The notes below the pieces were generated by a model. That model searched no databases, was not told the origin of the DNA, and saw nothing but the letters and a program-made list of their open reading frames with translations. Both the position numbers and the translations under genes were made by a program. From Obelidium mucronatum (taxonomy: Eukaryota > Chytridiomycota > Chytridiomycetes > Chytridiales > Chytriomycetaceae), in assembly GCA_025765595.1 (NCBI GenBank), contig JAIVFH010000022.1, positions 124,001 to 188,000 on the forward strand: a stretch of 64,000 nucleotides of DNA. Direction: 5' to 3'. This document shows positions 9,243 through 34,861 of this stretch, piece by piece (the stretch's first letter is position 1; each line of letters begins with the position of its first letter).

Positions 9243-10137
9243 ATGGTTTTGGTTTTGGCGATTGGCGATTTACACATTCCACAACGGGCAGTTGATCTTC
9301 CTGCGAAGTTCAAGAAGCTTCTTGTTCCTGGTGGGGTTTGTTGTTCAACCTGGTCTGAGGCTGACTAGAGGTCTTAGGGAAGATGCACAAAGTGTTGGCC
9401 ACGGGAAACCTCTGCTCCCAGGACACGCTTGACTACCTAAGGACAATTAGTGCGGATGTAACTGCTGTATCTGGCGACTTTGACGACGTGGGTTTGGTCA
9501 CTCAGCTCTCTGCGGTGGTTGAAGTGGGAAGCATCAGGATTGGTCTTGTCCACGGCCACTCAGTTCTGCCTGCAAGTGTATTTTTATCATTTATTATATA
9601 CTAGTATATCACTCTTCTTACTCTTTGGTTGACGGTAGTGGGCAGATCGTCTTGCTCTTTCAGCAGTTGCACGTGAACTGGATGTCGATGTTTTAATCAG
9701 TGGACACACGCATGCATTCGACGCGTTTGAAGCAGAAGGTCGTTTTTACCTCAATCCAGGCTCTGCCACTGGTGCATTTTCAGCCGTAAGGACCCCTGGT
9801 TCGTGTCCCCACTGAAGGACGTAAAGGAGAACACCGGCAGAACAGAGTGCCGAGGACAAGGATGGAGGCAAGGAGGAAGACCAAAATGGCAAATCTGTAC
9901 AAGAGGATCAAGAGGAGAAGGAGAAGGACAAGGAGCCTCCAAAACGAACGCACAAGCTCGTGTCAGATGTGATTCCCAGTTTTGCCTTGCTTGACGTTCA
10001 GGGCAACACGGTTGTAGTGGTATGTAAATTGTTTTATCTGAAGTAAAACTCTTATACGCCTCATTATTTAGTACGTTTACAAGCTTATCGATGGTGATGT
10101 GAAAGTTGAAAAGCTGGAATTTACAAAGAAAGTCTGA
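9243..10137 (+). CDS. VPS29: Retromer subunit VPS29
   Basis: VPS29 is the metallophosphoesterase-fold scaffold subunit of retromer, which retrieves cargo from endosomes. Five exons can be read: 9243-9330, 9378-9577, 9639-9785, 9846-10019 and 10072-10137, with all junctions in frame. Diagnostic motifs are [13 protein letters not shown] at the N-terminus, [29 protein letters not shown] and [10 protein letters not shown]. As in animal VPS29, several phosphoesterase metal ligands are altered from true enzymes. Between GSATGAFSA and [15 protein letters not shown] there is an insertion of about 45 Lys/Glu/Asp-rich residues not found in the animal protein. The protein ends EKLEFTKKV, matching the family's usual C-terminus. 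The gene converges on the first member of the two-TM array. Confidence 0.93.
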
Positions 10138-11060
10138 TGATCAAAACTCAAATGATATTCCAAATTTTGACTTTTTGTCGGATGATCTCTCAACATTCTC
10201 GAGATTTGTAACTTGGTAATTGACTCCCCCTCCTCCGCTCTTCTCCATGCCAATTCGTTGTGCTCATGCATGAAAGATCTATCTGTCCATGGCTGGTATT
10301 CGGGCAATAACTCAAGAAGCTGCCCTGTCTTACTTGAGTATTCGATATCGATCCTCCATGGGACCTGCATACGATTGGATTTGAATTGAAAATCAAGTAA
10401 TGGAACCCAATGAGGTAATCGTCGTGAAGTCCATGAGAGCGTGACATGTGTGTCCATGTGATTGAACTCTTCCATTCGGCATTCAACGAAAGCTTCATAC
10501 TAAAATGGTTATTTTCGGGTGAGAATGAATTCTGTGGGACCTATGAAGAACTCTGAACTCAACTGAATGTTTCCTGAAAGTAAGAGGTACGCCAATCATC
10601 GTTATCCCAAACCCTGAACAAACAAGCGCCCAGAACACATTTGTTGAAAGCTCTTGATACCAAATCAAAGGACAGATCAGTAGGATTGAAGTGATAAGGA
10701 GAATCCACAACCGAATATGTGCGGTAAAGTCTGAAATTGTATAGTATTTTGATAAATGCGCGTTGATGAGATGAATTCGTTGGGCGAATAACTGCTGGCT
10801 TAACTGGAAAAAAGGAATGGTTTTCTTTAAGTATGCAATACCCCTTCGCCTCCCCTGAATAAAGTACATACAAGGCCCTCTAACCCAATTGGCAAGTCTG
10901 GATCAAAGTAGTTTCTATGGAAATCGTTGTATCGTAATGGAAGCGATGCTACAACGTTGCTGGTGCAGGAATACACAGTTCCACTATTAAGGGAGTTGAG
11001 GCTGATGGAATCTTCTGACGAAAGCAATGAAGTTGAAGATGTGGGACGGTAAACATTCAA
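10077..11060 (-). CDS. Two-TM LPxY/PPxY family member 1 (C-terminus frame-disrupted)
   Basis: Exon 1 (MNVYRPTSSTSLLSSEDS at 11060) ends PIGLEGL. The frame is open further upstream without a Met, so an earlier exon is possible. Exon 2 starts LSQQLFAQRIHLINAHL and carries two TM segments, the first around LWILLITSILLICPLIW. Exon 3 starts YEAFVECRMEEFN and holds VPWRIDIEY and LLPEY. The reading frame then continues to 10077, but the family's terminal motif (LPSYKSREC) is present one frame over and ends at 10190. Member 2 ends with a similar PSYKSRE, so a one-base shift in the purine run near 10220 has probably replaced the tail. If the longer frame is used, the gene overlaps the convergent VPS29 3' end. 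Confidence 0.6.
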
Positions 11061-11462
11061 AGCAGCTTCAGGTATCTCAATTATAGATTGAACTAGTGTT
11101 CTTGTGGTACTTGATACTGGATCAGCGTCGGTGGGTGGCGTGAAATCCGATTCAAACGAAAAAGATGTGGATAATGCAGTATTAGTTGGCGTGAAGTAGG
11201 CACAGATGGATTTGGGTTCGTTTTGTCGAGATTCAAGAATTCATGCGTTTGGATTGATGTCATTTCTTCTGAGGGGTATCTGTGTAAGATGCTTGGGACT
11301 GGATTAAAATATGTCCAAGAGACTCTGGTATAGCTGATCAATGTTCGCGAAATAGGAACCAAAATGAAATTTCGCCAAATGTAAATACTATTGAGAAAAT
11401 TCCATTCGGATCATTGATTTTTTTCATTCATTTCCCAAAACTAACAGTGTAAGATTTTATTT

Positions 11463-12409
11463 TCACATTCTGTTCATCTCTCGTGATTTATAACTTGGTG
11501 CGGCAACCGATGCCGTATCAGCAACCAAAAAGGAATCACCACCACCCCTATCCTCAATCACATCGGTAGAATATCGCGGCAGAAATTCTGATTCTGGATT
11601 TGTACAACTGTTTCCTTCTAATCGGATTATTATAAACCAAGGTATCCTTAAGGCGCCAAAGGAATAATTGTCAGGAGAATCCCGCATCGATTCCCAAATA
11701 ACTCCAAGGGGCTGATCTGTTTTTGTAAACAGAAGCAATTCAGATTCTACAAACTTGACATACTGAAGAAGGATGATTAGAATTTACATAGCTGTAAAGT
11801 TGAGAATTGAACTCACCCCTTTCTTAAGATGTGTCAATGCCAAACCAACAACACCAGGAACAACGCCTCCAGCCAGAAGGGACCAAGATATCGTTCCATT
11901 TAAGTCAGTGAAAAGAAGCACAATTATGGCGTATACGCATATTCCCAAAACTCCAAACAATCGGACCACTGACGAGAAATCACGCAGCGTCGGGTACTTT
12001 CTTAGAGCTGTATTGATTTTTTGCATTCGGAGCTGAAATTCAGTCCGTGGAAACTAAAACATAATATAGTTAGTGAACATAATTTTTTTTTCTTGGTTTG
12101 CCGTTGGGAAATTTATGCCAAGGAGAAAGATAGAACTCAAATTACACAGAAACACACCACATGCGATAGGCCTTCTGGCATCAGCTCATCAAAGTATTTT
12201 CCATTTGTGCAAGAATAGTTGATGGCAATCAAGAAGCAGGGTGCAATCGTCACCTCAGCAGATGGACTCAAAGTATTGGTCACATTGCTGCTCTGGCGAA
12301 GCATAGGTGCAGCACTTCCACTGGATGAGGCTCTGGATTCCATTTCGGCACGGTGGAAGTTGTAGGACTGCGATAGGCCATACACACTGATGGTTGGAAA
12401 GAACTGCAT
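11463..12409 (-). CDS. Two-TM LPxY family member 2
   Basis: Three exons. Exon 1 begins MQFFPTISVYGLSQSYNF (an alternative Met lies at 12460) and ends with the family block around KYFDELMPEGLSH. Exon 2 includes MQKINTALRKY, a first TM segment (FGVLGICVYAIIVLLF) and a second rich in Gly/Val (LLAGGVVPGVVGLALTHL). Exon 3 contains ESMRDSP, IPWFIIIR, the LPxY motif EFLPRYS, an acidic spacer and the terminal APSYKSREMNRM. It retains an intact tail, which identifies the ancestral tail of member 1. Expected topology: both termini cytosolic, with the C-terminal domain and motifs in the cytosol. Function unknown; WW-domain binding is inferred from the motif only. Confidence 0.7.
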
Positions 12410-12709
12410 TCTCTGAACAATAACAAAAACGGAAGGGTAAAAAAAGAAGGCGTGAAGCATTTAGTATTAACTCAACTCACATGAAGATTGAAGGGTAAAT
12501 GAGTAGGATTCTTGTCTATATAAGGTCTTTTAGCGGGCTGGAACAAGCTTTGACAGTTGTTTTCTGCTCTTTTTTAATTGGAAAAACTTCAAACCTTGCG
12601 TCTTCAAAAATGGTCAATTATCTAAGATCTTGGCGCAATCGGAGCTTGGATTTCAGCGGCTTATTGTAAACGCCGACTATTATTATATATTTGTAAGAAA
12701 CGTTTAACT

Positions 12710-13616
12710 TTAAACTCTTGATTTGTAACTCGGCGCGCGTGTTGAATCATTTTCAACCGAGGCAACCAAGAATTCCAGCGTATCATCCCCGTCATGTACA
12801 TCCGCAGAGTAGCAGGGCAGAAACTCTGAATCTTCACAACCAGCACCATCCCGAGCGCGCACATACTCGTCACTTCGACGAGCTCTTCGAATGATTAAAT
12901 CCCATGGAGTTTTGGCAATCTCAAAATCAATGTGGTACATTGAGTTGGTCGCTTCTACATTACGAACAGATTCCCATTCCAGTCCAATCATTTTATCGAG
13001 CTCCGTGAATCTTTTCATTTCAGACTCAATAAAGTTACAGTACTGTAGCATAGAAATAATGTAGTAAGAGTTTTTAAGGACAGGCTGGAAGTTAAACTCT
13101 CAACTCTTTTCTTGCAATATGTGATCAATACGACTGCAACGCCAATAGCAGCACCACCAGCAATAAGACCCCATGCGTGCATTGCATTACCCCCAAAGAT
13201 AATAACAATGACGATACTGTAGAGGGTGAGCATGATAAAGATGAACAGCCGAATGATTGGGGAGTAGTCCCGTATCGATATATATTTCCGTAGAGCTTGG
13301 TTTATTCCTTGCATTCTGGCGTGGAATTCTGGGGCTGGGATCTGGTGACATCGTTAGGCCTTGACACTTCACTACAACAAAGAATTCGCTATACATAGTG
13401 AATGAGGTCTTCAGGAAGATCCTGGGTAAAGAATTTTCCATCCGGACAGTTATAGTCGATGGTAATAGAGACAGTCAAGTCTGGTGATGGAACTGTTGTC
13501 GGTTCAAGGCTGGCGGTTTCTTGCAGAATCGTTGTCGCAGTCGACGGCGTTCTGGCGTCCAGCGTACTTCGATAAGCGGTTTGGTATGTGTCTGATAGGA
13601 CATACAGTTCCATCAT
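12710..13616 (-). CDS. Two-TM LPxY family member 3
   Basis: Exon 1 runs from MMELYVLSDTYQTAYR to the family block KFFTQDLPEDLIHYV. Exon 2 (MQGINQALRKYISIRDYSP) has two TM segments, one around LFIFIMLTLYSIVIVIIF and one in GLIAGGAAIGVAVVLITY. Exon 3 carries MIGLEWESV, TPWDLIIRR, the LPxY motif EFLPCYS and the terminal APSYKSRV at 12710. It resembles member 2 more than the others, particularly in exon 2 (NQALRKYxSIRDYS versus NTALRKYPTLRDFS), indicating a local duplication. Confidence 0.7.
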
Positions 13617-13987
13617 TTTGGTTGAAGGACGACGGTTAAGCAGCGATTGTTTGGTCTACAGTTAAGGGGTCAACGCATTAGGCCGGCTCTCGGGCTCCAT
13701 GAAATATGATACATCCTCTTCGAGAGATGTCTCAGATCAAAGTAAACCGACCTTTTTTTCTTCTTAAACGAACGAGATTAAACTTGGATTAGATGGAGAT
13801 CTTGTGAATTTGCCAAGGTTCATCAACTGTACAAAACAGTAACAGACTCACAAAACCGTAACGTACACGTAGAGTGTAATTGCTCTCTTCATCCAGCGGA
13901 AATGGCTTTGAAACTATATAAGACTATATACCTTTGACAGTAATAACTCTATTGTTTCACATCTAATATTAATAAATACAGCCCATC

Positions 13988-14882
13988 TTAAACAGTCGAT
14001 TTGTAACTCGGCAAGCGGGGGCGAGTGGAGACGAAGTCAAACATATCTTCCTCTTGACTCTCTGCGACCAACACATATCTGTCCGAGTAAGCGGGAAGAA
14101 ATTCGAGCTCCAAGTTGGACCCATCTTTTGTAACATGGCGAATGGATATTCTCCGACAGAAGGGGAGCATTCGATAGTGGAAAAAGGGTTGGTGTCCTCC
14201 AGATAATCGCCACAAAAGTCTGATTGAATGATCTTCCTGATTATATGCTTTCAAGAGACGGATAATCGATCTTTCAGACTGTACAATGTATTTCAAATGT
14301 TAGTTTCACAATTTTAAAACGTGTGACTGAATAACAGGTGTCACCTTTCGTTTGACGGACGTTAACAGTGCGATACCCAACGCCAATGTCCAAATCGCAG
14401 ATAATCCAAGTGAAATGACCAGGGAGTCACAAGCGAAAGCAAACAGACAAAGGGAGAGACCCGCAGCAAATAGAGCACATAAAAGTCGAATTAAAGGACC
14501 GCATTCTGACTGGATTTGGCGTTCTTTTAAAACACTGTTCAAGTCATGAATTCTGTCTGCAAAGAGTTGGCTTGAGATCTAAAGAGGAAGTTTGAGAACA
14601 CCAACGCACACAACCTATCAAAACACCAACCAATCCTTCCATCGATGAAGGCAAAAGCTCATCGAATAAAAGAGTACCGACACTGTCTTGTGGCTTTAAC
14701 AGCAAGTCTGCAATAAGGCATGAGGAGTAACCCCTGCGGCTGGGCATGGTAGTTGCTGCGGCGGCAATATCCACTACACAAGCCTCTGTAGGAGCCTCGT
14801 TGGCCGTAAGAATATTGCCATCTTCAGCACTTTCTGCATGGCTTCCGGCAGCAGAATCAGCGACAAGGAAGTTGCTTGTCAT
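13988..14882 (-). CDS. Two-TM LPxY family member 4
   Basis: The start is taken as MTSNFLVADSAAGSHAES at 14882, just downstream of a poly-T/A tract; the longer frame through the Lys run to 14954 is less likely. Exon 1 ends LLFDELLPSSMEGLV. Exon 2 (ISSQLFADRIHDLNSVLKE) has TM segments around LLCALFAAGLSLCLFAFA and SAIWTLALGIALL. Exon 3 has NQEDHSIRLLWRL, RRISIRHV, EFLPAYSDRY and terminal RLPSYKSTV. The tail motif is LPSY rather than PPSY, so this member has two LPxY motifs. Confidence 0.7.
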
Positions 14883-15041
14883 ATTTCTTTTTTTTTTTTT
14901 TTCGCGCTTGTTTTCCACAAATTGACAAAAAAACGAGTGGTCACTTGCTGACAATTATTAAAAGATTGGGTGAATATTGGTTTTAACTATGTACTATTTA
15001 TTTACTTAATGCTGGGAAGGTATGTTGGGAAAAAAGAGACT

Positions 15042-15999
15042 CTACGCAAGGGTATCGTAACTGGGGAGTTCCGCAAGACCGCCCTCTAGACTGGCAGCCA
15101 AACGAGAATATGCAGGTAGATATTCTTCTTCCTCGTTAGCTCCTCCTTTCATCACATGTTGAATCTGAATCAGCCTTGCAAATGGAATGGGTCGCAATGA
15201 AATGAACACTAGATTTCCGTAAGGCACAAGCCGCCACACTAGCCGGATCGCTTCATCTTCTTGATTAAAGCCGATAAGCTGTGTGGTTATCTCTTTTTCA
15301 AACTGAACAGGTTCTAGTTAATTAACAGTACAGTCCGTCGACGAATCCCATACCTTGTGTCTAGCCATAGCAGCCTCTGAAACAATAACCATGAAAACCA
15401 ACGAGATACAAAACGTCACCAGAATACACATTAAACTGTCGGATAGAAGTTGAACAGCCAGGTTCACTGAAAAGACAAGAATCAAAGTAAGCAATCGCAT
15501 TAGAGGTCCGCGATCTTTGCAGTCTTTGAATTCTTTGAGAGAATCATTAAGCTGCTGTATTCTACTCGAAAAGACCTGACTTGCAATCTTTTGAAAAGTT
15601 GGGGCGCATATATATGGTAAGAAAGTGTAATTACAAATTTGTGAAGGGAACCTGTTTGACACCAACCAGCCCCTCGATATCCCGCGGCATTTCGGGAGAT
15701 AAGAAGCGCCCTTCTTGTTGCGATAGATTCAGTTTGACCAATCCAACTGTGGATACGATTGGCGCAATAGGTTCGTTTTCGGTAACGAGAGGCTCAGCAA
15801 TTAGTTGAACTTCGGTCGCATTAGTAACTGGTCCAGACTCAGAGACAGCTTGCAGCAAGGCATCGCTTTCGCTGCCATACTCCAGTTCTGTTTCTTCACT
15901 GGGAATTGTGATCGTTGCAGAGGAAAGAGCGGTTTCACTGTTCATTTCGAGTAAATGATTTTTGCTGAGTTGGTTTTTTTGTTTGGTGGCACTGGACAA
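15042..15999 (-). CDS. Two-TM LPxY family member 5
   Basis: Start candidates are 15999 (MSSATKQKNQ) and 15945 (MNSETALSSA). The N-terminal region is acidic/Ser-rich and ends in the family block RFLSPEMPRDIEGLV. Exon 2 begins FQKIASQVFSSRIQQLND and spans two TM segments (LTLILVFSVNLAVQLL and CILVTFCISLVFMVIV). Exon 3 contains NQEDEAIRLVWRL, FARLIQIQHV, EYLPAYSRL and the terminal ELPSYDTLA. The spacer between the two Tyr motifs is among the shortest in the family. Lys of the usual PSYKS tail is replaced by Asp. Confidence 0.7.
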
Positions 16000-16342
16000 T
16001 CAGATCATTAACAGTTTTCATTTCCGCATACGAGTTGTTACAAGTTTCAGCCAAGCAATGATATTTATAAGTGCATCTATTCGTCGGCGATATACCCTAC
16101 CAAGTAACCCGATGTTAAGGACAGAAGACACAGATTATCTGAGACTGATGATTCGATCATTTCGATCTTCTCAAGTCTTAATGATAATTGAATTGTGAAC
16201 AAATTAAACGGAAATTGGATTCGCGATTGAACAACTCAAGCTTGCCGCCATCAGTGAATTTTTAAAGCAAACAGTTCGGCGACAGTGAACCGAGTTTGTT
16301 ATCACAAATATACAAGGGACCTTTATTTTAATCTTCCACAGT

Positions 16343-17415
16343 TTATGCCATTGACCTATAGCTGGGTACCCGTGGAACAACTGCCGGAGAAGCAGCACCG
16401 CCTGTACCTTCAGCTGTGCTTCCAGCAGCAACAAACCAATTCATTAAATCGAACCGTTCAGTATACGCCGGCAGAAACTCTTCAACTCCGCCCTTATTCG
16501 TATGACGTACAAGCACGGACCGCGCATACGGAATCGGTTTGAAATAAAACACGTTACGCATTTCGTTTACAGTTGAGTTCAATTTCCAAATGAGCTTGAT
16601 TGTTTCATCTTCTTGGTTGAATACTTTGAGCTGATCGTTTATGAATACCTCAAACTGAAATAATATTCGTTTTTGTGAGTTGACTCAGTTTAATGTCGAT
16701 TGAAGTCAAACAAAAAAAGGGGTTATATTACCTTCTTGGGGCGGAATGTGAGAATGTTAACTGCAACTTGAAATGACAGTGCAGCAATGCATACAAATAC
16801 TTGTACGGTTATATCGTCTGCAATCGTCATGAGGCCGGCTGAAGCGCCCAACAAAACAATCAGCGACGCAAGGCGGATCATTGGCCCCAAGTCCATCGGA
16901 ACAGACAGCGTTTTGAAACCTTCATTAAGCTTTTGTAATCGGCTTGCGTACACTTGATTCGATATCTGTTTTATTGTGGGGTGGGGTGGTGGAGGGGGGG
17001 CGATGAAGGGAAAAGATGAGTAGTTCGCAGACACTCAATTGAATGTTTTAAATCTTACCAGACCCTCAAGCCCTACTGGCATAAGGTCGTCTGAGTCTGC
17101 GGCCTGATAGAGGCTGAGTTCAAGCTGGGCAACGATGGAGTTTATTGGCGCTGAAGTGGAAGAGTCATCATGAAGGGTTGCCTGGTCACTCAGTTGAGAC
17201 TGTTGTGATGGGCTTTGGACTTCAGGGATATTGAGGACATGAGAGCTGGGAATCGCAATGGTCAATCCATACGCATGCTTTTCAGAAGTGGTGGTGGCTG
17301 AAGGGGCACTGGAGGGCAACGGAGTCACTTGAGATGTTTCGGCATTGACTGCCAGTACTGGCTCAGGCTGAGGATCAGCTGAGTTAGAAGGGAGTCTAAG
17401 GCTGGGCAACTTCAT
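16343..17415 (-). CDS. Two-TM LPxY family member 6
   Basis: Exon 1 starts MKLPSLRLPSNSADPQPEP and is Pro/Ser/Thr-rich, ending LMPVGLEGLV. Exon 2 begins IKQISNQVYASRLQKLNEGF and has TM segments near LASLIVLLGASAGLM and VFVCIAALSFQVAVNIL. Exon 3 holds NQEDETIKLIWKL, ARSVLVRHTN, EFLPAYTERF, a Gly/Ala-rich spacer and the terminal VPSYRSMA at 16343. Members 4, 5 and 6 share the NQED(x)xI(R/K)L(x)W(R/K)L pattern and form one subgroup. The peroxidase gene follows on the opposite strand. Confidence 0.7.
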
Positions 17416-17776
17416 AGTTGGTAATGGTGCTTGATGGTGAGTCTTTTTTGGTCGGTTCTGTTATCAAAGTTGCAAGGGGGCACGATTTTTTCTTTGCTGC
17501 TTTATAACCAAACTGACTGAAAATTCTGTCGTTTGCATCATATCAGGGTGGCTTGTTTCAGGAGTCGAATCTTTCACGTGGAAACGAACATGGCCATATA
17601 AAAGTAAACAGCATGGGAAGGGTTGACACTGAAACTCTGACTGAACCTTTGTTGCAACAGTTGCCAACAGTTGAACTTTTTGCTTTACTATTGAGTTATC
17701 TCTTGAGAAGGGCGTATGTGAACATAAGTCATTGTAATCACAAAAACGAAAGGAAAAAAAACGCCAGAAAGTAATA

Positions 17777-18704
17777 ATGACCACTGTCAATCGTTCCAAA
17801 TCAGGCGCCAAAGTCGGAGAATACAAAAAACCAGGCGCGGACGATGTGCGTGGACCATGTCCGGCGGTCAATAGTTTAGCAAACCACGGATATCTGTAAG
17901 TGCAAGACTCCAAAGTCAGCGAAGCAATACAGTAATCAATCAACTCTTGAAAATTACAAAGTCCAAGAGATGGAAAGTACATCACCAAAGAACTCCTCAT
18001 GGACGCGTTGCAGAATCAGTATCACTTATCCCAAAGAATCGCGTTTGTGTATGGTCATTCCTTTGTTCTCCCCATGAACAACCATCCTGACAAAGCCAAC
18101 AAACAATTATCAGTCTCGCAACAACAGTTCTTGATCCCGAAAATCCTCTTGGTGTCCGTCCTTCTGGTCAAGAAAAGGAAGACGTTGCAACAGGGAAATC
18201 AGTCCCATACATCCACCTGAATCAACTCAACACACACAACAGAATGGAACATGATGTCTCCATGTTCCATCTCGATGCATATCAAGGCGATCATACGGTC
18301 CCACAAAAACAGATGGTTGAGAACTTTATTGCCGAATCTCAGGATGGAGTTTGGTTGACTTGGAAGGATATCGCGAGATACAAGGCAAAGAGATACCACG
18401 AAACGAAAAAGAAGAATCCAGATATGGTTTATACTGTTCGTCAGATGTTTACTTCATGGGCGGAGGCCGCGGTTATCATGCTGGTTTTGGGAGGAACTGG
18501 TAAGCATCAAACTTAAAAATCAGTATTATATACAACCAAGAATTTCAATCAGCCAAAAATCCTCGCGTTCCAATCTCGTATGTCCGCGACTTTGTCCTTG
18601 AGGAAAAGCTCCCAGAAGGCTGGAAAAAGCCTGAAGCCGAAGTTGACAGAAACGCAAACATTTGGCTCATGGCGAAGATGTTCTTTTATTCTTTGTGGTT
18701 CTAA
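17777..18704 (+). CDS. Heme-thiolate peroxidase (chloroperoxidase, peroxidase family 2)
   Basis: Fungal heme-thiolate peroxidases use a Cys-ligated heme to halogenate or oxygenate substrates. Exon 1 (ATG at 17777) ends 17895 and includes the signature DVRGPCPAVNSLANHGYL, whose PCP Cys is the proximal heme ligand. Exon 2 continues PRDGKYITKELLMDALQN. A later exon has NRMEHDVSMFHLDAYQGD, matching the distal EHD-(S) region with the acid-base Glu. The last exon ends MAKMFFYSLWF at 18704. Introns are about 45-55 nt. No signal peptide is visible at the N-terminus. It is the only plus-strand gene inside the minus-strand array, so it either predates the array's expansion or was inserted. Confidence 0.85.
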
Positions 18705-18794
18705 TTCTTCTCTTTGCTTATATGATTTCTCACATTGGAGGGTTCCCATATGCAAAACTATTTATTTAATTAGCCTTCATTTTTTTAAAACTGC

Positions 18795-19897
18795 TCATGA
18801 CATCAAAAACGACTTGTAACTTGGTGGTCGAGACACTTGGGTAATACTCCTGTTATTTCCATCTAGATTTAATGGGATCGTCACAGAGTGGGTAGCTGAA
18901 GGGTTGGGCGGCGCGTTCAACCAAATACTCTCGCGCGACGCCAACAGAAGCCCACTTTGACCGCCCATAGAAGGTGCATATGCTGGAAGAAATTGGGCTT
19001 CCGCTCCTTGCTTATTGATATACGTAACAATGATTCTCCACGGAACTTCTGATGCTTTCTTCGACCAATCGCAAGTGAACATTGGTTGCTCGTGGTTTCG
19101 CAAGGACGACCAAATCAGCTGAATAGAATCGTCTTGCAGTGTAAAAGATTCAAGCTCTGCTTCGATAAATCGCTCATACTACAATATTTAGTGATATTAG
19201 TAAACAGAAGGAGTAATTTGAAATCACAAAAGTGATTACCCCAGGCTTATAGTAGGTATACATCAAGGCGCCAAACATGATCCCTAAACCGGCAAACGAA
19301 ACACACCAAAGAAGAATAGCCGAAAACTGGCTGGCCAACAGGACAAAGAGAATGCTGAAAATAATGAAACAGATGAAAATGGTTGTACGTGCTGGAGACA
19401 TGAAGTCCTTTAGGGTACTGAATTGAGATAGCCGTTTGTTGATTGCTTTGATGCGCGAGGTGTAGACAAAGTTGGGTATCTGTTCAGTGTTGGGTTAAGC
19501 AAAACTGCGTCATCCTCATCCTAGGCAGCGACAAGCGACATACCAATCCTTCCATTTCCACTGGCATTTCTTCATCAAAGAACTCGTTGCTCTCGTGGTT
19601 GTATCTCAAGTGGAGGGAGGCCACTATTGACGGCGTGGTCACTTCGACGCTTGCAATCGAAGGCGCTTCATTGACAAACACTGGGCGGATCGTTCTAGTC
19701 TGGAAGTCTTCGTCCGGCAGGAAACTGAGGGGCGAGCCAGGCGGGTGTCCCAGCAGGGGTCTTGCTACGGGATCCTCCGCAATGCCAACAGTGTGCAGCT
19801 CCATTGCCTCGGCATGCGACCGCAGCAGATTTGCTCGGCTGCTGCTTTCGTGCAGCGATCGGTCCAGCGATGAATGCTCGCTGGTCGGTGAACTCAT
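18795..19897 (-). CDS. Two-TM LPxY/PPxY family member 7
   Basis: Exon 1 starts MSSPTSEHSSLDRSLHESS and ends with FFDEEMPVEMEGLV. Exon 2 begins IPNFVYTSRIKAINKRL and has TM segments around IFICFIIFSILFVLLA and LLWCVSFAGLGIMFGALM. Exon 3 begins YERFIEAELESFTLQDD and holds VPWRIIVTY, AQFLPAYAPS, a long Ser/Asn spacer and the terminal PPSYKSFLMS. This is a canonical PPxY tail, shared with members 8-10 and absent from members 1-6. Confidence 0.72.
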
Positions 19898-19950
19898 TTC
19901 TTTATTTTTTCGGTTTCAAATTTCCCCTTTGCCGCACAACAGTTCACGAA

Positions 19951-20912
19951 TCAACTCCGTAACACAAAAGAGCGGTAGCTCGGAGGTTTTCCTCCTGAAT
20001 GCGGAATAGTGATTGAATCCACATCAAGGTCGATAGCAACAGAGTGCTCCTGTGAATACGCTGGCAGAAATTCAACTTCCTCCTGTTCTTTGCGAATGTG
20101 CTGCACGACAATTATCCAATCAACTTGAATTCCGACATCTTTCCAATCATAGACAAATACAGGTAAATTAGTTGCGACAGGTAGAAGTTTCCAGTGAAGA
20201 TGGACGTTGGCGTCTACTTCATTGAAAGCCTGAACTTGTTTCAACAGGAACTTATTGACTGCCTGTGGAATAAATTGAGTCAATACTGCTGTATAAACTT
20301 AGGAGAATGGCAATGTACCCCGGTATGGAAGAAGTAGGTCGCGATGATAACCATGCAAATCAAGGCGATCCCAAAAGACCACCAGATGAGAGCTACAATT
20401 TTTGCTCCAAGGAAAACGGGTACGAGGCCGCCAAATACGTAGAAATGAAGAATAGCAGATCGAATCACTGGTGTGTAATCCTTTAATGTTTTGAATTGCG
20501 CTAACTCGTGGTTGATGTGCTGCATTCGAGTAAAGAATACGTGGGTGGGTATTGTTCCGTGAAGTGCCTCAGGCATTACTTCTTGGAAGAGTTTTCCCTG
20601 AAAGTTATCATATCGAATCTGGAACTGGCATGTTGTCCGTGAAATGGGATCTCTATTCGCTGAAGGTCTGTTATTCGGTGAAGATATGCTTGATTGATGA
20701 CGAGTTTCTGCGGTTTCGATGATGGTGACAGGTTCGGGATCCGGTTCAAAACGAAAAGCCTCGCGGAGAATCGTTAAGCGGACGCGGTCATTATTGCCAG
20801 TTGTTGGGTCATGTCCATCTCTATCAGATGGTTCTTGAGCTGGAGTAAGTAGTTCTGAAGGAGAAAGCACGGGAGCAATAACTTGATTGTAGCTTGGAGG
20901 AACCATCAACAA
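19951..20912 (-). CDS. Two-TM LPxY/PPxY family member 8 (first intron absent)
   Basis: A single uninterrupted frame from MLMVPPSYNQVIAPV covers what are exons 1 and 2 in the other members: the block FQEVMPEALHG reads straight into TIPTHVFFTRMQHINHEL, so the first intron has been lost. TM segments lie around FYVFGGLVPVFLGAK and SFGIALICMVIIATYF. The last exon starts near AVNKFLLKQVQAFNEVD and has VDWIIVVQH, EFLPAYSQEH and the terminal PPSYRSFVLRS. An additional PPSY motif is present at residues 5-8, so this member has PPxY at both ends plus LPxY. Confidence 0.72.
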
Positions 20913-21127
20913 AAACTGCTCAACTTTAATTGAATGCTGAGAAGAAAGTTTGGTGAATGTTTTTCCTTATGTAACAGGGCTGTTGGCTGCTGCAAGGTTT
21001 GTTTGTCAGAGTTCGAAATGTGTAAAAAGTGTTCAAACAACTTGCAGTTACAAAAGCTGCACGAGCCCAAAGATATCATTAAATTTCATAATGAGCATAC
21101 AAAATGGCAATGCAGTGTTATTCCTTC

Positions 21128-22045
21128 TCAGACAGCGGTAGACATATAGCTCGGCGGCCGTCCATCAACAACAATAAATTCTGAATCTTCCGCATGTATT
21201 GATGCCACATATTCCTCCTCGTTCACGGATATTCCAGTATACGCAGGCAAAAATTGCACATCGTCCTCTTCACCCTCCTTGACGGACTTTTGCACAATGA
21301 TTCGCCACGGAACTTCCAATCCAAGATCCTCCAGCCTCCACGCAAATCGGGGAAGCGTATACTGGCAGTATCTAGGCAAAAGAATCCACTTCAATTTCAG
21401 AAACTCGTCTTCGGACGAATATGTTGTGATTTCTGCTAAGAGCAGCTTTTCAAGTGACTTTGGATGGAATAACAAAGTTAGCTACAACACGCAACATGTG
21501 TCAAAAATAGAGAGAAAGAACTCACCCCTTGTATACAATATGTGGTCATGATTGCACCAAATAGGATTCCAACTCCGACAGTCCACCAAACGAGGGCATA
21601 TGCCTTTCCCACTGAGCCCGAAATAAAAACTGGGACAGCACCGCCAATGAGGTAAATAATTACGTAAAGAGATCGCAGAGCAGGGCCATAATCTTTTGTA
21701 GTTCGCAGCTTAGAAATGGAATTATTCAACCGTTGCATCCGTGTATGAAATAGTGCGTTTGGAATCTATCGAACGTAATGATTTCAAGAAGAAACTCCGT
21801 CAACTGACACACAAAGACAAGCCTGGTATTGCACCAGTGTTCTGACTTACAATTCCATCAAGAGTGCTGGGCATTACTTCTGAGAAGTACTCTTTTGACA
21901 TGTTGTGCCGCATAAGAAAATCACATAGCACTTTGGTTGAAGTACGAATTTGTCTATGTGGATTCTCGGATTCAGCTATTGTTATGGCAACTGAATCTCC
22001 ATTTTCTGACACTTGCGGCAATGGTTGTACTTCAGGGTGGGGCAT
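21128..22045 (-). CDS. Two-TM LPxY/PPxY family member 9
   Basis: The start is taken at MPHPEVQPLPQVSENGD; the frame is open upstream to 22171. Exon 1 ends YFSEVMPSTLDGI. Exon 2 begins IPNALFHTRMQRLNNSI and has TM segments near YVIIYLIGGAVPVFI and LVWWTVGVGILFGAIM. Exon 3 contains SSEDEFLKLKWILL, VPWRIIVQK, QFLPAYTGIS, an acidic spacer and the terminal PPSYMSTAV. Its exon 2 is most similar to member 8 (GGxVPVF, (I/V)WW(S/T)xGxx), which places 8 and 9 in one subgroup. Confidence 0.7.
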
Positions 22046-22299
22046 GAGATGGTAGATGAGATGGAATTGATTTTTTTTCGGAGCCTTGTTGCATTCAGAA
22101 ACAGCACATGACGCCGAAAAGCTTTCTGCGGCCGGTGGCACGTTGCGAACCCTGCCGTGACATTTGCACACGCAAAGGGTTCAAATTTGTAGTGAAGTTC
22201 AAGTGAAACACAAAAAGTGTACGATTGCTAACTAATATAATTTACATTAAAAAAAGACACTATAAAAAATGATGATGGTGAGAAAGGGAAAATGACATC

Positions 22300-23961
22300 C
22301 TAGACTGCGGAATGTGTTGTTTTGTAGCTTGGAGGTCGTGAAAGCCCACGCATTCGTCCAAACGATAAGAAATCGTTGTCTTCTTCGACATGAACATATT
22401 CCTCTTTATCTGCGTCGGTATGCATCAAAAAAGATCTCCCAACACTCCTTACACGATCTCCCAGAAGTGTGCTGAAGGCCGGGAGATAGGCCGGCAAAAA
22501 CTCCACATCTACATCACATTTGTCTGTGTGTTTGATAAGAATCCGGCGTGGAATTTCTGTGCTGCGTTTTGACGCATCGCAGGAAACAGTCTGTGCGTGG
22601 AAACCATCTGCCAATGCCACTTCCCATGTAATTTGAGCGGCTTCATCTTGTTTGTTAAAGGCAGAAAGTTCGGATTTGAGAAGACGGTTGTAGGACTAAT
22701 AAATAGAATTTTGATTGTTTTTTTTTTTTGAGTGGTTGGTTCAAGAAGTGTGAAAATTAGGGGAAAAAAGAACTCACGCCAAGGACATAGACAGCAGCTA
22801 GATAGCCAACTAGCGACAAACCGGCAGAGATGCACCACATGACAGTATGCATTGACTTTGTATGAACCATGAAAAAGGTTGAAGTATGGATCATAAACAG
22901 AACAAATGCAATGGTTCGGGCAATGGGCATATAGTCCCGCAAGACTGAGAGAGCAGCGATTTTCTCATTAAGCAGTTGCATGCGGCATTGATATTCGTAG
23001 TTTGAGATCTGTGGGGAATCAATGAATGGAATTTTTGATCAGTATTGTGATTTCTACGCAAAATCCAATTTTAGTGCAAATAATTTGCGCACCCGAAAAG
23101 CTCCGAAAAGCTCCGAAATCTGTTTGCGCTCTCCTTTATTTAATCAAGCTCTTCCCAACACATATAGATCAGCACCAAATTGTCCACAACCAGCATGCAT
23201 CTCCGAATATCCGTGCCTACATGCATTTTTATCAAGGCCCGAAGCGCCCTGTGTTGACAAGCTCTTCAACAAGCACCAACCCCTACGTTGTCAAGCTCTT
23301 CAACAAACACCACTGCGATTTCTGCCAAGATCAAGTAGTACCTCAATGGTGCTGGGTAGTTTGAAACAAGCTTGTTACACGTCTCATGGCTGAGAATAAG
23401 CTAATCAGTCAGAGTATCAGCATGACATTCATGTTCTTCATTTGTGAGTTTACTGTGATATGATTGATATTGCGGTCTGAAGACGTCTATTCTCGTCTGT
23501 AACTGGCTGCAGTTTCCTCTGCTAAAAATAGAGCAGCGTAAGTATGACAGATAACAAAGAAAGCTCCCTACCAATGTGTAGCCTGAATTTCGATCTATCT
23601 GCGGTACACGTCTGGTGACTGGGGGATGCTTGGTGCGGTGGTGGCAGCAGGAACGACATTTTGCATTGGCAAATACACAACGCACCAAACCCTCCAGCTC
23701 ATTCGGTCTTTGCTCTTCAAAGAAAGGGGCAGTGTATCTCAGTGACAGAGAGGCAACGACCACTGCCACTGGCACAAACACCGATCTTGCGTCTTCATGA
23801 ACTTCTGTTGATCCAGAAGTGCTGTCAACTGCAACGTCCAGCGTAGTCTCGGTTTCAGAGCGAAAGCTGATATCGTCAGTCGCTTCATCGGCAGCCTGAA
23901 GCAAATTTGTTCGACTCTCTGAATGCGGCAGGAAGTGCTTGGATTCAGTTGGTGTCCTCAT
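22300..23961 (-). CDS. Two-TM LPxY/PPxY family member 10 (very long first intron)
   Basis: Exon 1 starts MRTPTESKHFLPHSES at 23961 and ends EEQRPNELEGL near 23693. Exon 2 (ISNYEYQCRMQLLNEKI, ending about 23010) has TM segments around TIAFVLFMIHTSTFFM and CISAGLSLVGYLAAV. Exon 3 contains FNKQDEAAQITWEV, IPRRILIKHT, EFLPAYLPAF, the longest spacer of the family and the terminal RPPSYKTTHSAV. The intron between exons 1 and 2 would be about 680 nt against about 50-70 nt elsewhere, so something may have been inserted there or two gene fragments may be abutting. Confidence 0.6.
23010..23692. other. Enlarged intron or insertion of unknown origin
   Basis: About 680 bp separates exon 1 and exon 2 of family member 10, ten times the usual intron. 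It holds short direct repeats (two near-identical copies of caagctcttcaacaa at about 23259 and 23301; gaaaagctcc twice near 23100) and open frames on both strands that I cannot assign. No terminal inverted repeats or recognisable transposase are visible. Confidence 0.35.
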
Positions 23962-24116
23962 TTTCTTTTTTTTTCCTTCACTTTTTTTGAAGAACGGCCA
24001 AGCCCCAATAATTGGCTACACACGCCGAAGAAGTTTGATTAAAAATGTATTATTAATAAACACAAACAACACAGAACTAATTATTAGAATTGAATTAGAA
24101 TGCAGATTTCTATAAC

Positions 24117-25065
24117 CTATAACATGGTTTTGTATGTCGGACACCGCCTGTCCAATCCGTCTATCATAGTCAGCACACAGGACTCTGCTGAATACGCTGG
24201 TAGGAACTCAATGTCGCGTAGGCATTCAGGACGTGGAATGTATTCAATTTGGATTCTACGAGGCACTTCTGCAGCTTTCCTTGTCCACCGGACTGAAACC
24301 AAGGGTGGAGTATATGATTTCTGCGTCCGACTCCATTTTAACTGAATTGATTCATCTTGTTTGTTGAAATCGAGCAATATTGGCTCAATGAGGCGGTCGT
24401 AGGCCTGTTTTTTGATTGTAGATTTTAGACACCCGTCAAATAAGTCATCAGATAAGGGGAAAACAACTCACGAAGGATTTGTAATAAGTCCAAGCGACTA
24501 AACACAAAACCACCAAAGAGACGGTGAAGAAGGGACCTAACGGACCTCCTGAAATTGCCCCGCCCATTTGAAGCATCACGATGAAGAACAAGATCAAGAA
24601 CCCAAGCAGCCCAGTTCGAACAAGGGGCATGTAGTCTCGAACCACCCGGAGACGGGATAACGAGGCGTTAAGAGAATTGATTCGATTGACATAGATGTAG
24701 TTTGGAAGCTACGGATAAATCAAATGTTGAGGTTTGATAAGATGTGTGAAATTCGGCAAAATCAAAGGCTGAAAACGTACCAAACCCTCAAGAACATCGG
24801 GCGCTTCATTGTTGAAAAATGACCCGTCTTTATTATCGTAGTCGAGCTGAAGGGTGACAAGAAGAGTAGGAGCGACCCTGGTGACTGATGGCTGGGTTTC
24901 TGCAAGGGTATTCGTGTCTACGTCATCACTCCCAAGTTGAGATTCTATCGGGATGCGAGTTGCAAATGCTTCGTCTATTTCTTCAATTATCGGAGTATTG
25001 GTGCATCTTGTGGAAGGTGATGGTGAGATATCTTGGACAGGCTCAAATCTGACGGGCGAGGTCAT
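24117..25065 (-). CDS. Two-TM LPxY family member 11
   Basis: Exon 1 starts MTSPVRFEPVQDISPSPST and ends FFNNEAPDVLEGLV. Exon 2 begins LPNYIYVNRINSLNASL, with MPLVRTGLLGFLILFFIVML as TM1 and FFTVSLVVLCLVAWTYY as TM2. Exon 3 begins AYDRLIEPILLDFNKQD and has VPRRIQIEY, EFLPAYSAES and the terminal CPTYKTML, so the second motif has lost its leading Pro-Pro. Member 12 is a recent duplicate: the two share long identical stretches in all three exons. Confidence 0.72.
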
Positions 25066-25275
25066 TCAATTTTTGGATTAATTGCCACGCAAAAACAAAT
25101 AACACACTTTGTGGCTGATCTTGAACCATAGTTGTAGACGTTTTTCAACGTCTTCACACGTTTTCTTCAGCTGTTCAGAATTGTTTTGAAACTTCTACTT
25201 TACTAGTATCCAGGGCGCACTGAACGTAGTTGTGTCAAAAAGTTGAATATTAATTTTATCAATGCACATATGAGA

Positions 25276-26219
25276 TCAAATTGTTTTGTATGTCGGAGAG
25301 CGATCCAATCCGTCTTGTATAATCACACATGTCTCTGTCGAATACGCTGGCAGAAACTCCATTTGACGCAGGCTTTCAGGCTGTGGGGTGTATTCAATTT
25401 GTATTCTACGAGGCACTTCTGTAGCTTTCCTTGTCCATTGGAATGAAATCAAGGGCTGACTATATGAACTTTGAGTTTGGCTCCATTTTAACTGAATTGG
25501 ATCATCCTGTTGGTTGAAACCGAGCAATATTGGCTCAATGAGGCGATCGTATGCCTATTTTTTTGTTTGATGTTCAGACAATGTTCAGAAGCAATTAATT
25601 ATATAACTCACGAAGGATTGGTAATAAGACCAAACAATCAAGCCCAGAACTACTAATAAAACTGTGAAAAAGGGAGCTAATGCCCCGCCCGGAATGGTCC
25701 CGCCCATTTGTAGCATCATGATGAAAAACACAACCAAGAACCCAAGCAGCCCAGTTCGAACCAGGGGCATGTAGTCACGTATCAACCAAAGGCGGGAAAG
25801 TGATTCGTTCATAGAATTGATTCGATCGACATAGATGTAGTTTGGAAGCTGTGATGATTCAAAAATTAAATTGTGAAGATGTGGTGAAATTCGGCACAGA
25901 AAAAATCCAAGAGACCCACCAAGCCCTCAAGAACATCGGGAGTTTGATTGCTGAAAAATGAACCGTCAGTATTATCGTAGTTGAGCTCAAGCGTAACGAG
26001 AAGTGTCGGAGCGATTCTCGTGACTGATGGCGGGGTATCAGCAAGGGTATTCGTCTCTGCTTCATCACTGCCAAGTTGAGATTCTATCGGGATGCAACTT
26101 TCTATCGGGTTGCATCTTGAAGGCGGTTCTTCTATCGCTCCAATCACTGGAGTATCGGTACATCTTGTAGAGGGCGATGGCGAGATATCTTGGTCGGACT
26201 CAAGTGTGAAAGAAAGCAT
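25276..26219 (-). CDS. Two-TM LPxY family member 12
   Basis: Nearly the same as member 11. Start MLSFTLESDQDISPSPST (alternative Met at 26237). Exon 1 has a short internal duplication giving IESCIPIES and ends FFSNQTPDVLEGLV. Exon 2 is LPNYIYVDRINSMNESL followed by the TM pair (GLLGFLVVFFIMMLQM and FFTVLLVVLGLIVWSY). Exon 3 begins AYDRLIEPILLGFNQQDD and has VPRRIQIEY, EFLPAYSTET and terminal SPTYKTI. This is the 5'-most member of the array, and the duplication that produced 11 and 12 is the youngest visible. Confidence 0.72.
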
Positions 26220-27512: not shown

Positions 27513-29464
27513 CTACTGACGGTTACGTTGTCTTGGAGCAGCACGAATAATATCATCCACTCTCAAAATCATTTCCGCGGCTTCACTGGCACTCAATAGA
27601 ACTTGTCTCTTCAATTTAAATGACTCGGTGATTCCCAAGGCCTTGACATCAGCAACTTGGCCGTTGTACATATCAAGTCCGGACGTGCTCTTGCCTTCGT
27701 TGTGACGCGCCCGCAGTTGTGTCACAAGGTCGGAGGAATCGTAACCAGCATTAGTCAGCAAGAATTGTAGGGAGCTAGGACGAAAGTTACAAAAAATAAA
27801 AAATATAAACCGAACAAGGGGCAACAAACCTGTCTCAATGCACGAGCAAATCCTTCGACTGCCATAGCCTTTTTGCCTTCGGTTGTTCGGGCAACATCAT
27901 CAACTGCCTTCGCCATCAAACACTCGCTACATCCTCCACCCAGAACGGTCCGTGGCTCGGCGACAGTTTGAGACAAGACACAAAGGGCATCATGCAAACT
28001 ACGCTCAGCCTCGTCAAGCAGCTGGTGAGTGGCTCCTCGCAGGACAACAGTGCAGGCCTCTCCCGCCGCAACTCCACTGAACTTAATGAGACGGTCTTCT
28101 CCAATAATCACCTCCTCAATCAACTTGCAGGATCCAAGTTTTACCAACTCTGGGTGGTCAAAGGTAGATGCAATCTCTCCTCCCAACACAAGTGCAAGAC
28201 GCTCAATACCAACAAAGTCCGCGTGTTCAATAGCAGTGATTCCAGAGTCGGCAAAGAGTTGTTCGGGCCAGTTGTAAATCAATTGACGGTTAATGAAACT
28301 AGAAAAGTAGTCGATTAGATTAAAGGACGTGAAGTAAAACTCTATATGTCGTACCAGTTGATTCCAGTGACCCTTAATCTTTTCAACCTTTTCCTTCATC
28401 TTGTCCTTTTCTGCACGCTCCAACTCAGCAAGCTTTCCAGTGGCGTCGACACGGACGCGGGCACCAAAGATCTTGATCTTGTCCGTGTCCATTGCTATAT
28501 TCAAGATAAGAAGTACGACACGACGACATCAAGTACACTACTTACGAGTATTGGCAATCAGGATCTTGGCGTTCTCGATTCTCTTTGGCTGGTTGACACC
28601 AATCTTCTTGTCAAGAATGAAACCTTCATCCAAGTAAGAATCCATCAACTTTCCACCAATCTTCTTAATGATTTGAATGTGCTCCAAAGAAGTTGATCCC
28701 TTCAAACGCAGCACGGCATCAACGGCCAAGTTTGCAAAGTATTCCTTGTCCTGAGAAAGAACCTTTGAAGATAGGGTAGTCTTGGCAATGTTGATAAGAT
28801 CCTTGCGGAAAAGAGCCTCGTTCTTTCCATTGTCAACTGCAGATGCTTCCAGTGCTTTGAGTGCGGCAGCAGAAGCAATACGGTATCCTTCCACGACGGT
28901 TTGCGGATGGATCTTCTGGTTAATCAGGCGTTCCGCTTCACGTAGCAATTCAGCAGCAAGAACACAGACTGAGGTTGTTCCATCGCCAACTTCATCGTCC
29001 TGCACTTTGGAGATATTAACTAGCACCTTTGCAGCAGCGTTGTCGAGAGCAATTGATTTAAGGATTGTGGCACCATCGTTAGTGACAGTGATGCTTCCAT
29101 CGGTCAAGGACTGAAGAACTTTATCCTGTGGATGGTTTTCTGTCAGGGGGTGGAAGCCAAAAAACACGCTCGTTCGAAGTAAACAACGTACCATTCCCTT
29201 TGGTCCGAGGGTACTCTTGACTAAATCACCAACGGCAATAGCTCCAACGAAGGATGCCTTTGGATTAACAGTGGTTGCTTTTAGGTGAGTTTGGGAACCA
29301 AGCAAAACCAAGACGCAAGAAAGCCTCACCAATCGGGCATGTTCTGCTCGCTCTTCGCTTCCTCCTTCCGAAAAGATGTTTACAGGTCCAAGTCCAGACT
29401 ATGAGTAGAAGTGTTTCAGTTGATTGCTGTGATGAACGCCTGAAAGCAATCACACACTCACCAT
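27513..29464 (-). CDS. CCT2: Chaperonin TCP-1 ring complex subunit beta (CCT2)
   Basis: CCT2 is one of eight subunits of the cytosolic CCT/TRiC chaperonin that folds actin, tubulin and WD40 proteins using ATP. The start is an exon coding only the initiator Met (29464-29462) followed by a GTGAGT intron; exon 2 (29398-29331) reads [23 protein letters not shown], matching the family N-terminus. Later exons give [40 protein letters not shown] (ATP/Mg loop), the CCT2-specific [60 protein letters not shown] and the C-terminus [14 protein letters not shown]. The length and order agree with CCT2. Confidence 0.95.
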
Positions 29465-29850: not shown

Positions 29851-30254
29851 TCTAGGCTCAGTGTCAGCCTTGCTCTCGGAACTCTCAAAAAGAAAAAATA
29901 AAAAAAATTTCCATTTTCGAGCCCCAGCGAGAAGGCTGATCGACAATCTTCAAAACCCGCCAACTCCATTTTTTGTAGCGGAAGAACCAGCGGATGGATC
30001 TTCCTCAAATTCGGCACAGGTGTAGTTCAACTTATTTTATTAGTTTTGGCGGCCTTTTGGCCACGTGTTTCTGACAGTTTCCGTTTGAATAGTGGGGCCG
30101 CGTTTCAGACGTCTCCAGTGGACTCAAAACACGCTATATGCTCCTATGTCTTGTTTTTTTTTCAGTATATCCAATATATCAACATATTCTATTACCGTTC
30201 GACACGTTGATTTGACCTGGAAATCATTTTTTGTTCTGTCCGGAAACACATCAA
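29851..30254 (+). repeat. Left terminal inverted repeat, 404 bp
   Basis: Matches the reverse complement of 34458-34861 through to the shared inner sequence CGGAAACACATCAA, with the same length on both sides. Contains subterminal inverted segments TCAGCCTT (29864-29871) and AAGGCTGA (29932-29939), a GGCC-TTTT-GGCC motif near 30050, and a 54-codon open frame (ATG at 30092) that leads in frame into the DUF6589 gene. Confidence 0.92.
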
Positions 30255-30280
30255 CTCAACTGAAATCAACAGTTGCATTT

Positions 30281-34458: not shown

Positions 34459-34861
34459 TGATGTGTTTCCGGACAGAACAAAAAATGATTTCCAGGTCAA
34501 ATCAACGTGTCGAACGGTAATAGAATATGTTGATATATTGGATATACTGAAAAAAAAACAAGACATAGGAGCATATAGCGTGTTTTGAGTCCACTGGAGA
34601 CGTCTGAAACGCGGCCCCACTATTCAAACGGAAACTGTCAGAAACACGTGGCCAAAAGGCCGCCAAAACTAATAAAATAAGTTGAACTACACCTGTGCCG
34701 AATTTGAGGAAGATCCATCCGCTGGTTCTTCCGCTACAAAAAATGGAGTTGGCGGGTTTTGAAGATTGTCGATCAGCCTTCTCGCTGGGGCTCGAAAATG
34801 GAAATTTTTTTTATTTTTTCTTTTTGAGAGTTCCGAGAGCAAGGCTGACACTGAGCCTAGA
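34458..34861 (-). repeat. Right terminal inverted repeat, 404 bp
   Basis: Reverse complement of the left repeat, ending CTGAGCCTAGA. It carries the mirror copy of the 54-codon frame (ATG at 34620) that runs in frame into the helicase start. Confidence 0.92.

Follow-up and report, generated by a model that had tools for sequence, protein, structure and literature searches.

Paired Pro-x-Tyr motifs and a predicted Erf4/GOLGA7-like fold in a tandem family of membrane proteins from the chytrid Obelidium mucronatum

Introduction

Erf4/GOLGA7 (GCP16) proteins, grouped in PF10256, are small, low-copy partners of DHHC palmitoyltransferases whose fold acts at the cytosolic face of the membrane and whose acylated cysteines are located in the membrane helices. 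GOLGA7 has one named paralogue (GOLGA7B), Arg16 of its RDYS motif contacts the DHHC zinc fingers, and binding is lost when the whole motif, this residue included, is replaced (PMC12528901; all sources given by PMC number are cited from excerpts). Erf4 is required for palmitate transfer and protects Erf2 from endoplasmic reticulum-associated degradation (Mitchell et al. 2012, via PMC10076531). Another group of membrane proteins serves ubiquitin ligases: the WW domains of Rsp5 bind PPXY and LPXY, the membrane adaptors Bsd2, Ear1 and Ssh4 use such motifs (PMC2810449), and Rcr1/2 carry PPSY and VPEY (PMC2810449, PMC5578492). Commissureless and PRRG proteins have an LPxY and, after it, another PY motif in a cytoplasmic domain that is otherwise little conserved (PMC5578492). 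Nothing joining Erf4/GOLGA7 with PPxY motifs, NEDD4 or WW domains was found in the literature searched, and Erf4 and Rsp5 met in one paper that mentions each of them once. Judged by title, the paper matching both Erf4 and chytrids is about bacteria of amphibian skin, and those listed for chytrids with palmitoyltransferases deal with other subjects; subscription papers and preprints were outside the scope of these searches. Here, we describe a family of proteins that brings together features of both groups, encoded in tandem in a 64,000-nucleotide window of the chytrid O. mucronatum (GCA_025765595.1, contig JAIVFH010000022.1, positions 124,001 to 188,000; coordinates are those of the window unless a contig handle such as C22, the contig of the array, or a locus handle is given).

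A twelve-gene array with two conserved motifs

The original prediction, made from the letters alone, proposed a twelve-member tandem family between positions 10077 and 26219, and spliced models confirm it: twelve related genes lie there on the minus strand (Table 1). These genes share a plan of three exons with phase-0 junctions at two shared places (member 8 lacks the first intron), and their intact products are 239-325 residues long. Pairwise identity among the 11 intact members is 19-41%, except for the pair formed by members 11 and 12 (73%), for which non-synonymous (dN 0.150) and synonymous (dS 0.557) divergence indicate purifying selection.

As claimed, LPxY is found after the conserved domain in all twelve copies (LPAY in nine; LPRY, LPCY and LPEY in one each), in the intact members behind its last predicted strand, and a second Pro-x-Tyr motif stands in frame near the C-terminus of 11 of them, with 3-8 residues left to the end of the protein. 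This second motif is PPSY in four members and LPSY in two, while in the remaining five the proline is preceded by another residue (APSY twice, VPSY, CPTY and SPTY). Twelve columns are invariant among the intact members (Met1, P112, R127, N132, R149, D214, W221, L262, P263, Y265, P317 and Y319 in the numbering of member 7), and five of them are the Leu, Pro and Tyr of LPxY and the Pro and Tyr of the second motif; no other column after LPxY is invariant. Since P[ST]Y arises in only 0.7-2.7% of shuffles of the individual tails, its presence in 11/11 is well beyond chance, paralogues being, however, non-independent trials. Taken with the low overall identity and with the orthologues described below, these sequence comparisons support the earlier suggestion that both motifs are under selection.

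An xPxY string is not diagnostic by itself because further ones occur inside some of the domains (LPNY in members 11 and 12, LPRY in member 9 and KPGY in member 7); it is the fixed place that is diagnostic. These additional strings, and the location of LPxY so close behind the last predicted strand that its Leu and Pro could be structural, would suit a scenario in which neither motif is a WW ligand and the first instead closes the folded domain, the last being a tyrosine sorting signal or other tail motif. This scenario has very little to recommend it, since YxxPhi at the last tyrosine fits only six of 11 members (5, 6, 7, 8, 11 and 12), whereas Pro and Tyr are kept in all of them, and since a related type of protein on contigs C422 and C49 carries its second motif at the opposite end.

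A predicted GOLGA7-like fold

The conserved unit consists of a strand, a helix, a long hydrophobic hairpin (modelled as two helices of 20-24 residues each), another helix and two strands, followed by LPxY, a variable spacer and the C-terminal xP[ST]Y. That the family has a conserved domain had been recognized, but its predicted identity with the fold of the DHHC partner Erf4/GOLGA7 had been missed. For member 7 (residues 87-253) and for P0013, a protein of a second subfamily (residues 76-244), predicted structures compared using Foldseek display a GOLGA7-like fold. Both models have the same two top matches, which are GOLGA7 in its DHHC complexes, and nearly the whole of GOLGA7 is aligned. A sequence signal (F...P..L...I...F....N) coincides with the structurally matching stretch, and PF10256 is matched by five of the 11 intact array members (best E 0.0013) and by nine of the 17 proteins of set A3 (best E 4.7e-5). 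On these models, the array proteins look like a divergent branch of Erf4/GOLGA7-fold proteins, so far seen only in chytrids.

A conventional Erf4 gene is found elsewhere in the genome, at C14:408 kb (L061 3137-3690). Its product passes PF10256 with 46.8 bits, keeps RDYS, is 33% identical to human GOLGA7 and has no PY motif at its end. In the array, according to the register of the hhalign alignment, the equivalent of Arg16 is Leu, Ile or Met in 11/11 members and Tyr18 is kept in 7/11, while no hairpin column has Cys in six or more of the 11 members and the hairpin of member 12 is devoid of Cys. Because the RDYS arginine is lost and no hairpin cysteine is conserved, we file the array proteins as divergent relatives of this fold and not as Erf4 proper. 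As to topology, the strand before and the strands after the hairpin fit one GOLGA7-type fold, which makes a luminal location of the C-terminal domain unlikely; going by the fold match, domain and motifs would both be cytosolic. If the hairpin is truly a hairpin, both ends of the protein are on one side of the membrane. As a separate observation, the C14 gene apparently has a GC-AG intron and lies downstream of a CHCH-like frame (both seen by eye).

The same comparison bears on another possibility, which is that the array proteins are working DHHC-acyltransferase cofactors whose PY tails mark the cofactor, or the cofactor and its enzyme, for their own Rsp5-dependent turnover, making them substrates instead of adaptors. 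The structural matches are to GOLGA7 bound in DHHC complexes, 20 DHHC matches are spread over 13 contigs of the genome, and the role of Erf4 in Erf2 stability and palmitate transfer (PMC10076531) would be in line with such an arrangement. However, the residue equivalent to Arg16 is replaced throughout and Tyr18 persists in only part of the family, the hairpin has no conserved Cys column, a conventional Erf4 is already present and none of the 20 DHHC matches is on C22. We therefore regard this arrangement as rather unlikely.

Relatives in other chytrids and in the genome

A protein search with the array profile returned eight matches, two of which are Obelidium records, P0001 (BDR26DRAFT_858296, partial), which is member 7, and P0007 (BDR26DRAFT_858288), which is the last 172 residues of member 5. 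Retention of the motifs in related species, on which the original prediction had made itself depend, could be assessed with the other six, orthologues of member 7 from other chytrids. Five of these (P0002-P0006, from Chytriomyces, Rhizoclosmatium and Podochytrium) keep LPAY and a C-terminal (R/K)PPSY(R/K)S, the motif-to-motif spacer being 152-167 residues in the three Chytriomyces proteins; P0008 (Siphonaria, flagged UNVERIFIED) has no hairpin and LPAY only. The N-terminus, said to be variable, shares FQTRTIRPxxVxE between member 7, P0002-P0005 and P0008 (P0006 starts downstream), so that variability was overstated for member 7; it is otherwise weakly conserved in member 7 and these five relatives.

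The second subfamily, found with a protein from C15, comprises nine proteins from Obelidium, Chytriomyces, Rhizoclosmatium and Physocladia, and 9/9 have LPxY followed by an APxY that starts twelve residues later. A tree built from 196 core columns, with this subfamily as the root, places member 7 on short branches beside P0002, P0004, P0005 and P0006 (support 80). Longer branches lead to clades of members 2/3 with the C64 locus (94), 4/5/6 (100), 8/9 (100) and 10/11/12 with a second mini-array on C22 (84), the branching order among which is supported by just 47-63.

Both haplotypes are retained in parts of the assembly: C391, C330, C198, C230, C422 and C619 contain stretches with 95-99% identity to other contigs, and gene counts therefore need correction. 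After removal of haplotype duplicates, there are at least 30 Erf4-like loci besides the conventional gene, a lower bound counted from open frames among the best candidates, which alone are scored by the search. Two PxY motifs are seen in 26 of these 30: 11 of 12 in the array, 3/3 at C22:90.7-93.2 kb, the single C64 locus, both second-subfamily loci on C15, 5/5 in an array at C15:124-130 kb, three of four in the C422/C49:220k cluster, the one at C49:199k and neither of the two on C40, where one tail was read. Proteins of the C422/C49 type have one motif before the domain (PPVY, PPEY or PPDY; LPNY at C49:199k), while LPxY terminates the protein, so that both motifs are retained in a different arrangement. 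Two side observations concern these loci. The second mini-array (L047, C22:88500-95500) lies about 41 kb away from the main one and consists of three plus-strand copies, each of which has ERCPSYR near its end. On C15 (about 128.5-130 kb; L051 8475-9998), a 507-residue open frame joins what appears by eye to be a retroelement integrase stretch to an Erf4-like start.

A candidate ligase and a possible adaptor role

Like Rsp5/NEDD4 membrane adaptors, the array proteins have PPxY/LPxY-type motifs outside their membrane segments (11 of the 12 copies have two of them behind the hairpin), and the genome encodes a ligase that could be recruited. At C1:841298-843207, a single strand carries three WW matches and two HECT pieces within 2 kb, in the order typical of the Rsp5/NEDD4 layout. 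By eye, there is also a C2-like stretch upstream, which has no Pfam match.

These elements can be assembled into a model in which the hairpin would hold the Erf4-like domain at the cytosolic face of the membrane, where the two Pro-x-Tyr motifs would be a bipartite ligand for the WW domains of an Rsp5/NEDD4-like HECT ligase. The domain would select a membrane partner, which could be a DHHC acyltransferase or its replacement, and bring the partner complex to the ligase to be ubiquitylated and sorted or turned over, with either the client or the adaptor itself being modified. We give about even chances to this proposal that the array proteins are Erf4-fold adaptors with a bipartite PY ligand for an Rsp5-type ligase. 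Its firmest step is the fold and its weakest the adaptor role.

Several findings weigh against it. Foldseek gave no match at E 0.001 (the best were 0.021 and 0.035), the mean predicted local distance difference test (pLDDT) score of the first model is 57, with 46-59 over residues 221-250, and the alignments of the two models partly overlap, so that they are not two fully separate tests. No member reaches the PF10256 gathering cut-off (best 23.6 vs 29.3 bits), and profile-profile comparison by hhalign with two conventional Erf4 proteins gave probabilities of just 1.8 and 8.6. Such weak scores could mean that the likeness to Erf4/GOLGA7 arose by convergence and that the domain is a separate small membrane fold, but this seems most improbable given that models of two subfamilies, even with partly overlapping alignments, find the same two top matches over nearly all of GOLGA7, and that the sequence signal coincides with the structural match. 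As for the motifs, classical WW ligands are LPxY and PPxY only, and APSY, VPSY, CPTY and SPTY, in which the first Pro or Leu is missing, may bind WW domains weakly; moreover, the C40 loci have the domain and no PxY tail was found there, one of their two tails having been read. Finally, the reader of the motifs need not be Rsp5 because the genome has 38 WW matches across many contigs, among which only those at C1:842.6-843.2 kb adjoin a HECT match. The PxY pair could then bind the WW domains of a non-ligase protein, for example a WW scaffold or a transport factor, with the array proteins as membrane tethers. This is an improbable alternative in view of the three-WW Rsp5-type HECT ligases that are known to read LPxY/PPxY on membrane proteins (PMC2810449).

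Extended beyond the array, the adaptor proposal becomes more tentative, although it deserves consideration: this chytrid lineage may have freed the Erf4/GOLGA7 fold from its DHHC partner and expanded it to about 30 loci in one genome, as two-site PY membrane adaptors bridging clients to a NEDD4-type ligase. This large and divergent expansion, mostly with two PY motifs, hints at an undescribed link between palmitoylation and ubiquitin-ligase systems. It would mean that, in an early-diverging fungal lineage, a palmitoylation cofactor was rebuilt into a ubiquitin-ligase adaptor or, alternatively, was placed under ubiquitin-ligase control. Where the client remains a DHHC enzyme, S-acylation would be coupled directly to ubiquitylation.

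Gene models and neighbourhood

GT-AG introns were enumerated against portions of two members that had been inspected by eye, and three models were corrected by eye; starts and splice sites are predictions from sequence, not from transcripts. The length of member 2 reflects a start placed by choice at an inner ATG. Member 1 is broken, with an unusual second donor, no in-frame ATG seen and its second motif (LPSY) in another frame.

Table 1. Members of the array and the insert within it.
Feature	Position	Strand	Exons	Product	Motifs and remarks
Member 1, broken copy	10077..11099	-	about 11099-10872, 10803-10552, 10499-10077		LPEY in frame
Member 2	11463..12343	-	12343-12161, 12053-11817, 11762-11463	239 aa	LPRY...APSY
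Member 3	12710..13616	-	13616-13395, 13341-13105, 13042-12710	263 aa	LPCY...APSY
Member 4	13988..14882	-	14882-14631, 14578-14345, 14278-13988	258 aa	LPAY...LPSY
Member 5	15042..15945	-	15945-15667, 15587-15354, 15302-15042	257 aa	LPAY...LPSY
Member 6	16343..17415	-	17415-17059, 16965-16732, 16654-16343	300 aa	LPAY...VPSY
Member 7	18795..19897	-	19897-19544, 19479-19240, 19178-18795	325 aa	LPAY...PPSY
Member 8	19951..20906	-	20906-20319, 20262-19951	299 aa	LPAY...PPSY, with an extra PPSY at residue 3
Member 9	21128..22045	-	22045-21851, 21765-21526, 21457-21128	254 aa	LPAY...PPSY
Member 10	22300..23961	-	23961-23686, 23008-22778, 22695-22300	300 aa	LPAY...PPSY
Member 11	24117..25065	-	25065-24781, 24708-24472, 24404-24117	269 aa	LPAY...CPTY
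Member 12	25276..26219	-	26219-25920, 25848-25612, 25554-25276	271 aa	LPAY...SPTY
606-base repeated insert	23048..23653	.			inside long first intron of member 10; missing from other haplotype (C391)

The 606-base insert resembles a small transposable element bounded by terminal inverted repeats. Near copies are found on C329 (97%) and, twice and in opposite orientation, at C1:602.7-605.1 kb (89%), with part of it on C205 (73%), and its end has matches of about 50 bases in inverted pairs on C8 and C259. The neighbours of the array are a TCP-1/cpn60 frame (28538-29332, minus strand), a DUF6589 frame of 895 residues (30092-32779, plus strand) and a DEAD-box helicase (32803-34620, minus strand).

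Comparison with known systems

The array proteins resemble Erf4/GOLGA7 in the predicted fold of member 7 and P0013 and in the conserved F...P..L...I...F....N, but they differ in scoring below the Pfam cut-off, in having lost the RDYS arginine, in their hairpin of two 20-24-residue helices, in a long N-terminus and a PY-bearing tail, and in forming a multigene family beside a conventional Erf4 gene. With the membrane adaptors of Rsp5 (Bsd2, Tre1/2, Ear1, Ssh4 and possibly Rcr1/2), they have in common that they are membrane proteins with PPxY/LPxY-type motifs. No adaptor family of the Bsd2, Tre, Ear1, Ssh4 or Rcr type is, however, among their Pfam matches, their membrane part has a GOLGA7-like predicted fold and their ligase binding is putative. 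Commissureless/PRRG proteins, to which no relation was seen in a comparison of described features and not of sequences, are similar in combining LPxY and a further PY motif with low conservation outside the motifs, but those are animal single-pass proteins, with a Gla domain in PRRG.

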